From Tolumonas auensis DSM 9187 (GTDB taxonomy: Bacteria; Pseudomonadota; Gammaproteobacteria; Enterobacterales; Aeromonadaceae), in contig NC_012691.1 in NCBI RefSeq assembly GCF_000023065.1, positions 92,001 through 156,000 of the forward strand: a DNA stretch of 64,000 nt, in the 5' to 3' direction. The position numbers were made by a program, and so were the translations under genes. Positions 15,633 through 42,111 of this stretch are shown here, one piece after another. The notes below the pieces were generated by a model. That model worked only from the letters and a program-made list of their open reading frames with translations. It did no database searches and was not told where the DNA came from. Each line of letters opens with the position of its first letter. Position 1 is the first letter of the stretch.

Positions 15633-15932
15633 ATGACAACAGTAGATCATATGGAAGAAGTGTGCGAAGCCTGTGGCTGTGTGGCCGAGGTAGGCACCAT
15701 CATTCGTGATGGCGATGATCTCGTAATGATTCCGGTTGAAGGTGACAACGAAGAAGATGCCCGTGCGCGTCAGGAACGTTATATTGCCGTGGCGAAAGAA
15801 GCCTGCCCGGATGTGTTGGTGAGCAGTGAGCTGCAAACTGTGGAAGATGGTGTTGTGCTGAATACCACGCTGCAATTTACCTGCACTGCTGAGAAGATGA
15901 TATTTGAGATGCGCGCACGTTTCGTGCGTTAA
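15633..15932 (+). CDS. YfcZ/YiiS-family (DUF406) small protein
   Basis: The 99-residue protein has the conserved N-terminal CEACGCVAEVGTI cysteine cluster and the C-terminal FTCTAEKMIFEMRARF signature of the YfcZ/YiiS family. The molecular function of that family is not established. The cysteines could bind a metal, which is inference. The ATG at 15633 is preceded by AAGGAG; an in-frame upstream start is rejected for lack of one. It stands alone, bounded by the ptrB hairpin and a strong terminator. Confidence 0.85.
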   Translation: MTTVDHMEEVCEACGCVAEVGTIIRDGDDLVMIPVEGDNEEDARARQERYIAVAKEACPDVLVSSELQTVEDGVVLNTTLQFTCTAEKMIFEMRARFVR

Positions 15933-16028: not shown

Positions 16029-16050
16029 GTGTAGGATATTTGCCATAGTT
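16029..16050 (+). promoter_or_regulatory. Upstream element shared by both Csr sRNA genes (GacA/UvrY-type box candidate)
   Basis: TGTAGGATATTTGCCATAG and its flanks (22 bp in all) occur identically at 20077-20098, and nowhere else that I noticed. It lies about 160-180 bp upstream of the predicted csrB start. Response regulators of the BarA/UvrY (GacS/GacA) system bind an 18-bp imperfect palindrome at similar distances upstream of csrB/csrC; this element agrees at about 10 of 18 positions with the enterobacterial consensus I remember. Binding is inferred. Confidence 0.6.
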
Positions 16051-16173
16051 GTTGTGAGCCTGAGCGCTTATTTATGCAAGCCACCCTGATTTCATTTTTT
16101 GTATAGCATTGATTTTTAAGGTTTTTGATAATTAATTGATGGGTTTTCTGGCATAAATAGCTTTTTCAGCTAC

Positions 16174-16201
16174 TTGTAGGAAATGCATAAATCTTTAGTA
16201 T
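16174..16201 (+). promoter_or_regulatory. Predicted csrB promoter
   Basis: TTGTAG and TAGTAT separated by 16 bp give a modest sigma-70 promoter, placing the transcript start near 16208, directly before the ACTTCTGCAGGAC-like 5' end remembered from E. coli CsrB. Confidence 0.45.
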
Positions 16202-16207
16202 TACTTC

Positions 16208-16697
16208 TGCAGGACGCGCTGCGGTTTCCCAGGATAAGGAAGCCTGTCAGGATGACAAAGGATAACCTCAGGACGAGGTAACTGTTACTCAGGAAGAGTA
16301 ACTGTCAGGATGGCAAAAGGATCATACCTCAGGATGAGGTAACTGTTACTCAGAAGAGTAACTGTCAGGATGACAAAGGATAACCTCAGGATGAGGTAAC
16401 TGTTGCTCAGGAAGAGTAACTGTCAGGACGACAAAGGAACACCTCAGGATGGAGTCGTTGTTACTCAGGAAGAGTAGCAAGCCAGGATGGCAGAAGGATC
16501 CACCACAAGATGTGGTTATCAGGAACTCTTCACGGATGAAGAAAGTAACAGTCACGGATTGATTGTTACGCAGGATGCTTAAAAGGATGTCCCGATGGAT
16601 CGGGGAAGGCCTTCAAGGATGAGATAAGACGATGCTGTAGCATCGCCGGCTTGGGCAACCAAGATTTTATAGGGGGTGACTCATGTCGCCCTTTTAT
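16208..16697 (+). ncRNA. csrB: CsrB-family sRNA, CsrA-sequestering
   Basis: This gene-free stretch encodes an RNA of about 490 nt with roughly 29 GGA trinucleotides by my count. Most lie in the loops of short hairpins such as GTCAGGATGAC, CCTCAGGATGAGG and TTACTCAGGAAGAGTAA, with single-stranded AAAGGA linkers between them. That alternation is the defining CsrB architecture: each GGA is a CsrA site, and the RNA titrates the CsrA translational regulator. It ends in an intrinsic terminator, GGGTGAC-tcat-GTCGCCC followed by TTTTATTTTTT. The body is built from four ~59-nt tandem units plus a degraded fifth. No credible protein-coding frame exists. The 5' end is approximate. Confidence 0.92.
16244..16537 (+). 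repeat. Tandem ~59-nt repeats inside csrB
   Basis: Units start at 16244, 16302, 16362 and 16420, each opening with CTGTCAGGA, with a degenerate fifth from about 16479. Each carries three GGA hairpins and one AAAGGA linker. The spacing of 58-60 nt is constant; differences are mostly compensatory or in loops, except that the third hairpin of unit two has lost one G of its GGA (CTCAGAAGAG). Confidence 0.88.
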
Positions 16698-16712
16698 TTT
16701 TTGTGCGTCCGG

Positions 16713-16748
16713 CAAAAACTCCGGGCGTTGATTCACCCCGCCCGAAGT
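16713..16748 (-). terminator. Intrinsic terminator of wrbA
   Basis: ACTCCGGGCG and CGCCCGAAGT form a 10-bp stem with one G-U pair; on the minus strand TTTTT follows. It lies between the convergent csrB terminator and wrbA. Confidence 0.8.
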
Positions 16749-16761
16749 TTCCTTCCCGTTA

Positions 16762-17361
16762 TCAGCCTTTCATTTTTGCAGCGACCGTCGCCACATGTTT
16801 TCCCTGGAAACGGGCAATAGCCAGTTCACGGGCATCCGGTTGCCGCGAACCATCCCCGCCGGCGAGGGTGGTCGCGCCGTATGGCGTACCGCCACCGACA
16901 TGACTGATATCAAACATCTCTGCTGTGCCATAACCAATTGGCACAATCACCATGCCGTGATGGGCCAGCGTCGTCCAGGTCGAGGTAATGGTCATTTCCT
17001 GTCCGCCACCGACACCGGTAGAAGCAAAGACACTGGCAATTTTGCCGAACAGTGCACCTTTAGCCCACAAGCCACCGGTTTGATCGAGGAAATTACGCAT
17101 TTGTGCGGTCATATTGCCGAACCGGGTCGGAACTCCGAAGATGATGGCATCATAATCAACCAGTTCAGCCGGGGTAGCGACTGGTGCGCTTTGTTCAGTT
17201 TTTCCACCGGCAGCTGCAAATCTGGCGGGATCCATGGTTTCCGGCACACGTTTGATCGTGACTTCAACCCCGCTTACTTCCCGCGCTCCCTCGGCGATAC
17301 TGTTTGCCATGGTTTCAATATGACCATACATGGAATGATAGAGTACAAGCACTTTCGTCAT
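16762..17361 (-). CDS. wrbA: NAD(P)H:quinone oxidoreductase WrbA
   Basis: A 199-residue flavodoxin-like FMN protein that performs two-electron quinone reduction, thought to limit redox cycling. The phosphate loop is [13 protein letters not shown], followed by [24 protein letters not shown] and [10 protein letters not shown]-like segments ([13 protein letters not shown]), the classical WrbA series. The C-terminal [19 protein letters not shown] loop is also diagnostic. It is transcribed alone, with AGGGAA as ribosome site. It sits between csrB and the psp genes. Confidence 0.96.
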
Positions 17362-20214: not shown

Positions 20215-20546
20215 TATTCAACCTCCGCTTTCCGGATAACAAACTACTATTAGTCATAAGGAAACCGACAGCGGGGTAATATGAGTCGTTGTTCAGGAAG
20301 AGATAAGTAGGACCCCTGCCGGAGGCGGGTTTAAAGGACATCAGAAGGATCTGATGATAGCCGGTGACGGAACAGCGGTTATGCAGGAAGCAGAGCGGGA
20401 ATGTGAGCCCACGGATGGAATGATGCCTGCAAGGAAGCCTGCGCTGTACGCAAGAAAAAATGCTATATGTTTCACGTAAAGCAATCTTCGGTTTAGGCAA
20501 CCGATGCCTGTGGAGGGGGTGACATGAAGTCGCCCCTTTGTTTTTT
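20215..20546 (+). ncRNA. csrC: Second CsrB/CsrC-type sRNA
   Basis: The 573-bp gap between pspF and yecH holds no credible gene but about 14 GGA motifs between 20233 and 20514, many in hairpin loops (CTTCC-type pairs such as TTCAGGAAGAG, GCCGGAGGC, CATCAGAAGGATCTGATG). It ends with GGGGTGAC-atgaa-GTCGCCCC and TTTGTTTTTT, closely matching the csrB terminator, and both RNAs have GGCAACC about 25 nt before it. This fits a CsrC-like CsrA sponge of about 330 nt. The 5' end is uncertain because no clear promoter could be chosen. The name csrC denotes type, not proven orthology. Confidence 0.78.
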
Positions 20547-41669: not shown

Positions 41670-41757
41670 TACATTTGTGTGTAGGAAGATCACCATGTAT
41701 CCGGAACGGGCTTTGTGGTGGTCGTAAAATTACTATTTGTTTAGGAGTGGAATAGTG
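41670..41757 (+). promoter_or_regulatory. Alpha-operon leader (S4-binding pseudoknot type)
   Basis: The sequence TATCCGGAACGGGCTTTGTGG followed by ACTATTTGTTTAGGAGTGGAATAGTG matches, segment for segment, the E. coli alpha leader I remember (ATCCTGAAAACGGGCTTT...TAGTAGGAGTG.ATAGTG). In E. coli, S4 binds this pseudoknot and traps the ribosome at the GTG start of rpsM. Confidence 0.7.
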
Positions 41758-42111
41758 GCCCGTATCGCTGGCATTAACATTCCTGACCATAAACATGCAG
41801 TTATCGCGTTAACTGCGATTTATGGCGTTGGCGACACCCGTGCAAAGAGCATTTGCGCAGCAGCTGGTATCGCCGAGGATGTGAAAGTTAAAGATCTGGA
41901 CGAAGCTCAAATTGAAGCGCTTCGTACTGAAGTTGGTAAGTTTACTGTCGAGGGTGACCTGCGCCGTGAAGTATCCATGAACATCAAACGTTTGATGGAC
42001 TTGGGTTGCTACCGTGGTTTGCGTCATCGTCGTGGTCTGCCGGTTCGTGGACAACGTACCAAAACTAACGCGCGCACCCGTAAGGGTCCTCGTAAACCGA
42101 TTAAGAAGTAA
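41755..42111 (+). CDS. rpsM: 30S ribosomal protein S13
   Basis: A 118-residue S13: [58 protein letters not shown]. The start is GTG with TTAGGAG eight bases upstream. The upstream frame has no homology. The non-ATG start fits S4 control through the leader. Confidence 0.97.

Follow-up and report, generated by a model that had tools for sequence, protein, structure and literature searches.

CsrB is a well-known family of RNAs, whose E. coli representative and family model (RF00018) share with the locus described here an intergenic position, many GGA hairpin loops, an intrinsic terminator, and a candidate element placed far upstream. As in the wider CsrB/RsmB family, the genome under study encodes CsrA and a UvrY-like regulator, and the repeated unit of our RNA is similar to the CsrB core found in other genera. 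The RNA differs from E. coli CsrB, to which the consulted portions of PMC7652899 attribute 22 GGA motifs, in having 29 of them in about 494 nt and in containing four tandem core modules. Such a tandem-module architecture is unusual. In the portions of PMC6262261 and PMC7911923 considered here, the gain of Csr/Rsm RNAs took the form of whole gene copies. We found no account of tandem module arrays inside CsrB among the titles and abstract openings of the literature matches listed, which is not proof of absence.

We analyzed a window of 64,000 nucleotides (the whole stretch of DNA studied here) from the single-contig genome of Tolumonas auensis DSM 9187 (3,471,292 bases). The predicted CsrB-type sRNA, whose start is putative, spans positions 16208-16701 (+ strand). 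Its identity had been proposed from the sequence and was borne out by the covariance search suggested at the time: RF00018 matches 16343-16701 with 73.6 bits, for a cut-off of 71, a margin of just 2.6 bits. The match begins within the array of repeats and leaves the first units outside because the model, with its 356 positions, is too short for them. Nine of the 11 Tolumonas genomes pass the same cut-off, with G066 (70.1 bits) and G074 (69.3 bits) lying just below, and all 75 genomes of the family have a match, 71 of which pass. The 29 GGA motifs compare with a mean of 16.3 and a maximum of 23 in dinucleotide shuffles (n=300), the fold energy of the whole RNA has a z of -7.0, and the stretch is apparently non-coding, as it is overlapped by no open reading frame of at least 90 amino acids.

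The gene is flanked on one side by a DUF406 gene (15636-15932, +) and on the other by a flavodoxin-like gene (16762-17361), which lies on the opposite strand and which we take to resemble WrbA. The 5' leader (16208-16243, +) contains TGCAGGACGC, present in 11 of 11 genomes of the genus, while the remaining leader is variable. A candidate -10 hexamer, TAGTAT (16196-16201, +), was picked by eye and is absent from the output of a simple consensus scan. After the repeats, the sequence and GGA count delimit a single-copy 3' part with more GGA motifs (16517-16664, +). The intrinsic terminator (16671-16701, +) has 10 pairs at 16671-16694 and then a run of T. We are confident that 16208-16701 encodes a CsrB-type RNA that would sequester CsrA, and that its 5' half has grown by tandem duplication of a core module; the gene is presumably transcribed and the RNA presumably bound by CsrA.

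Plasmid kinship of csrB was rejected, with 16100-16720 giving no match in the plasmid collection. When 148 genomes of the order, a draw that may lack relatives from the genus, were searched with the DNA sequence, the matches were limited to the genome itself and a weak one of 41 bits in G128; the Rfam model was used in place of this search. Pattern matches in two Photobacterium records and in Nevskia soli carry 10, 10, and 12 GGA, respectively, over about 525 nt and were taken as chance.

The upstream element TGTAGGATATTTGCCATA (16030-16047, +) is a candidate UvrY/GacA-type site and has its centre about 170 nt before the putative start of the RNA; the portions of PMC4682653 consulted centre the E. 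coli csrB site at -183/-182. This 18-mer is contained in a 22-mer that occurs exactly at 16029 and 20077, upstream of both Csr RNAs of the window. When the first 20 letters of the 22-mer were searched with at most three mismatches, just these two places were found genome-wide (none for the reversed control). The 18-mer agrees weakly with the inverted repeat of E. coli csrC as given in the same portions of PMC4682653, at 12 of 18 positions, a value reached by 22 of the 63983 positions of the window's + strand, including both sites; the form found in G065 and G067 agrees with it at 14 of 18. In a looser form, the element occurs twice in the fetched loci of four of the 10 relatives (G066, G069, G070, and G073) and once in those of the remaining six, among which there are several short loci; the sole match in L038 is not the one before csrB.

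The second, weaker Csr-like RNA (20271-20546, +) scores 23.4 bits, below the RF00018 cut-off of 71, with 13 GGA in 20250-20546. It has no tandem units, and 98 of 200 module shuffles score at least as high as the actual order. The CsrA gene is the single match to PF02599 in the genome (89.7 bits), and a response regulator is 67% identical to UvrY. Elsewhere, locus L128 has a row of five tRNA genes at 804-1298, adjoining csrA, of which four are for tRNA-Arg (acg) and one is for tRNA-Ser. The window also contains an Alpha operon ribosome-binding-site leader at 41682-41787 (+; RF00140, 72.3 bits).

The tandem units of csrB start at 16244, 16302, 16362, and 16420, as first read from the sequence, and on these positions the sequence, the repeat finder, and TRF agree. 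TRF reports the array at 16244-16499, with a period of 58, 4.3 copies, 85% matches, and a score of 355. All four units have the proposed order of parts, i.e., a hairpin A (GTCAGGAYGRC), a linker GGA, a hairpin B, and a hairpin C, and their lengths are 58, 60, 58, and 59 nt. Unit 1 (16244-16301, +) and unit 3 (16362-16419, +) have 4 GGA each and are 97% identical; unit 1 folds alone into three hairpins. Unit 2 (16302-16361, +) has 3 GGA, one loop GGA having gone: the G reported as missing from its C loop (CTCAGAAGAG) is indeed missing in the sequence, where a sequencing error is possible. Unit 4 (16420-16480, +) has 5 GGA, folds less well alone, and is the top match of this RNA to a core profile made from other CsrB RNAs (see below). 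The GGA-to-GGA distances are 10, 11, and 21 within unit 1 and 16 from its last GGA to unit 2, and therefore the hairpin loops are spaced by 21, 21, and 16 nt. The parts of PMC7652899 considered here describe CsrA as able to bridge a pair of sites separated by 10 to 63 nt, preferably by more than 18.

One element of the original prediction had to be revised. What had been taken for a degraded fifth unit near 16479 is instead an A'-linker-B' element (16481-16516, +), delimited by comparing the sequence with those of relatives in the genus, and in each of the 11 genomes it comes after the last unit. Its B' loop reads CCACAAGATGTGG in this genome, against CAGGATG in 10 of 10 relatives, so that a second GGA is missing here.

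GGA hairpins are repeated in all CsrB RNAs, and the units might be alike merely since every CsrB hairpin is similar, with CAGGA loops and short stems. The original prediction had itself named this general likeness as what would count against unit duplication. Each CsrB was cut between adjacent GGA motifs, the resulting pieces were rearranged at random, and the best off-diagonal self-alignment was scored. The csrB of the window scores 252, whereas the maximum over 1000 module-order shuffles is 70; with 200 shuffles at each of four cut positions, the best shuffles reach 67-72. Order shuffling keeps the hairpins yet never attains the observed score, hence hairpin likeness alone is not the cause.

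We computed the same score, with 60 shuffles each, for 136 GGA-rich segments (112 + 24), which are clusters with at least 12 GGA and a density of at least 5.5% in the fetched loci rather than all model matches. Outside this set stand L001 and L033, which repeat the csrB of the window, and L002, the second RNA, which was tested alone; L049 repeats L029. An order signal is not rare, since 52 of the 136 segments exceed all 60 of their own shuffles, and the frequency of these weaker signals lends something to the explanation by ordinary hairpin similarity, although most are far weaker than that of the window. Self-alignment z values are 16-35 for the 11 csrB segments of Tolumonas, and the 30 segments of genus g2 range from 2.0 to 32.8. 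In 28 segments from 27 loci (L071-L097) of family f19, probably Enterobacteriaceae, the values range from -1.5 to 1.9, which argues that hairpin likeness by itself is insufficient. Six further GGA clusters in the loci of the genus, none of them csrB, gave z values from -1.1 to 0.3. The order of the units is moreover retained in the relatives. Ordinary hairpin similarity is thus refuted at the level of the sequence by the gap between 70 and 252, and we give it almost no credence. The reading in which a module was duplicated in tandem remains the preferred one.

Across 38 units of the genus, GGA is kept at 149 of 152 sites (A loops 37, linkers 37, B loops 38, and C loops 37). The named stems of the three hairpins have standard pairs in 97.9% of cells in an alignment of 22 of the 38 units, a percentage favoured by the omission of duplicates and of units with inserted bases or shifted loops. 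More precisely, the omitted units are G000 unit 2, G066 unit 2, G067 units 3 and 4, G068 units 2 and 3, the first units of G069-G074, and repeats of G069 and G072 units. Sliding the stem partners lowers the pairing from 97.9% to 24-72%. Of 500 shuffles, one attains the covariation score; however, no more than two pairs have changes on both sides, and 225 of 500 shuffles have as many. When folded alone, units 1-3 give three hairpins and unit 4 does so less well, with z values from -0.2 to -1.8, little better than shuffles. The GGA motifs of csrB are largely in the loops of hairpins A, B, and C, and the minimum-energy fold of the whole RNA pairs some units together, with stems formed across different units. 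Stems that are repeated could indeed pair in this way, and the binding of protein might or might not keep them from doing so.

DNA often contains tandem repeats, and the transcript is a predicted one, so one may ask if the repeats are a DNA-level element, such as a minisatellite or a protein-binding array, in a non-functional csrB-like stretch. The near-complete retention of GGA at the unit sites and the pairing of stem cells in the aligned units speak against this, as do the terminator and the upstream element, both in place, and the family model, with its matches throughout the family. We consider a DNA-level element highly improbable, and return to the duplication of an RNA module.

The CsrB unit is present in all 11 Tolumonas genomes examined, and its number differs between species. 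The comparison of relatives called for by the original prediction revealed three units in seven genomes (G068 and G069-G074), four in three (G000, i.e., the genome of the window, G065, and G066, taken as Tolumonas osonensis DSM 22975), and five in one (G067). We take G067, G068, G069, G071, and G072 to be Tolumonas metagenome bins; the five units of G067 come from a bin of 450 contigs, in which near-identical units could be misassembled. Units 1-4 of G067 are nearly identical; among units 2-4 the largest difference is a single inserted base. The identity in G065 is 98% between units 1 and 4 and 95% between units 2 and 3.

We compared unit identity within and between genomes using six lineages, with G073 representing its clade. 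The identity is 0.84 within genomes (34 pairs) and 0.79 between them (219 pairs), a difference reached by none of 5000 label shuffles. The excess comes from three of the six lineages (G000, G065, and G067) and is not seen in G066, G068, and G073. The best match of the 23 units is in their own genome for 12, tied for two, and elsewhere for nine. Growth by unit duplication, as originally proposed, is hence well supported by the order-shuffle null, the presence of three, four, or five units in the 11 genomes, the near-identical neighbours in G067 and G065, and the larger identity within than between genomes.

In a different account of the same alignments, the units date from long ago and owe their similarity to selection on a fixed higher-order structure, such as a defined CsrA-CsrB particle, rather than to ongoing duplication, the copy differences being rare relics. 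It draws on the clade G069-G074, six close species that all keep three units, with an identity of 0.96 for units at the same position (45 pairs) and 0.76 for those at different positions (90 pairs). Given this position-by-position match, the units of this clade have been stable since those species parted. The identical last units of G066 and G068 fit this account as well. Against it, the number of units varies, and four of the five units of G067 and all four of G065 have their closest match in a different unit of the same genome, suggesting that duplication or conversion was recent in these sequences. We therefore find old and fixed units rather unlikely, though deserving of more weight than the two explanations discussed above, and continue to favour growth by duplication. 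We claim no order of duplication, because the tree of the 3' single-copy parts has no well-supported fork. The identities of leader, array, and tail were set aside (the tails of G068 and G067 are short slices).

What was duplicated can be recognized by comparison with CsrB RNAs outside the genus. From the 76 non-genus segments with z under 3, we built a profile of 64 cores, taken from the GGACACC linker onward; the 12 unused segments are two of L034, left out by choice, and ten without a fitting GGACACC. This outgroup profile matches units in 11 of 11 genus RNAs, and the unit is thus best read as a CsrB core module in tandem. The best match is the last unit in seven of the 11 (one clade of six, plus the RNA of the window) and another unit in four.

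The cores themselves contain a hint of repetition. Of the 64 cores, 38 have a second GGACAC-type linker 45-67 nt after the first (58-67 nt in 34 of these), compared with a mean of 6.6 and a maximum of 13 of 64 in shuffled cores. Outside f19, this linker is present in 32 of 36 cores; within f19, it is present in 6 of 28. We treat this pattern only as a lead because it was defined after the cores had been seen and because the 64 cores, of which 59 are distinct, are related to one another.

Arrays also occur in other lineages. TRF finds a period of at least 40 in 18 of the 136 segments, namely all 11 Tolumonas segments plus L013, L015, L029 (with its duplicate L049), L048, L050, and L102. Tolumonas has a period of about 58, G050 one of 60, and three g2 loci have periods of 76-80, while the values for G038 and G277 are 99 and 133. 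The 60-nt array of G050, from genus g4 of the same family, is its own and has its parts in the same order as the Tolumonas unit; TRF found no array in 18 other g4 genomes, for which one locus each was fetched, be it the counterpart of the G050 locus or not. TRF detected no array in the 28 segments of f19, where the putative seed repeat is rare.

Several of these loci deserve mention in their own right. The cluster starting at base 5742 of L048 (G038, reverse strand) is a CsrB-like RNA with 50 GGA in 637 nt and 3.5 copies of its 99-nt period, and the one starting at base 518 of L102 (G277, reverse strand) is likewise CsrB-like, with 44 GGA in 634 nt and 2.0 copies of its 133-nt period. In genus g2 (L003-L032), the csrB clusters span about 385-520 nt with 31-43 GGA, against 22 in E. 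coli CsrB, and in many of them the order recurs with a lag of about 73-87 or 152-162. L101 (G083) has three adjacent GGA clusters of 344-345 nt with 20 GGA each, which are probably whole-gene tandem copies, unlike the module copies described here.

The module that would have been duplicated consists of hairpin A with a GGA loop, a single-stranded GGA linker, hairpin B, and hairpin C, about 58 nt in all and usually with 4 GGA. The built-in imperfect repeat of about 60 nt, marked by the second GGACAC-type linker, could seed slippage or unequal exchange, the presumed routes of duplication. Each added unit would bring about four candidate sites and could accommodate up to two CsrA dimers, if the dimer bridging described in the portions of PMC7652899 considered here applies to them. 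Differences in unit number would in this way alter the capacity to titrate CsrA. We tentatively put forward, as an idea somewhat more apt to fail than to hold, that the cryptic repeat of the CsrB core is a standing hot spot of duplication, making the number of sites a heritable dial of the CsrA network that has been turned repeatedly and independently and that possibly varies among strains. Species with three, four, and five units offer a natural dose series for asking how the number of sites determines the output of a global regulator.

The closest parallels to such growth are found in the duplication of whole genes. In Vibrio tasmaniensis, the duplication of csrB, as presented in the parts of PMC6262261 considered here, adds CsrA-binding capacity, as we suppose module duplication does in Tolumonas; there, whole genes were duplicated and relocated, whereas here modules multiply within one RNA. 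Similarly, Rsm sRNAs are amplified by duplication in Pseudomonas brassicacearum, where rsmX-2 is, in the corresponding portions of PMC7911923, a separate gene copy of 110 nt. Compared with the gain of whole genes, the internal gain of modules would be a finer route to tune the amount of CsrA that is sequestered.
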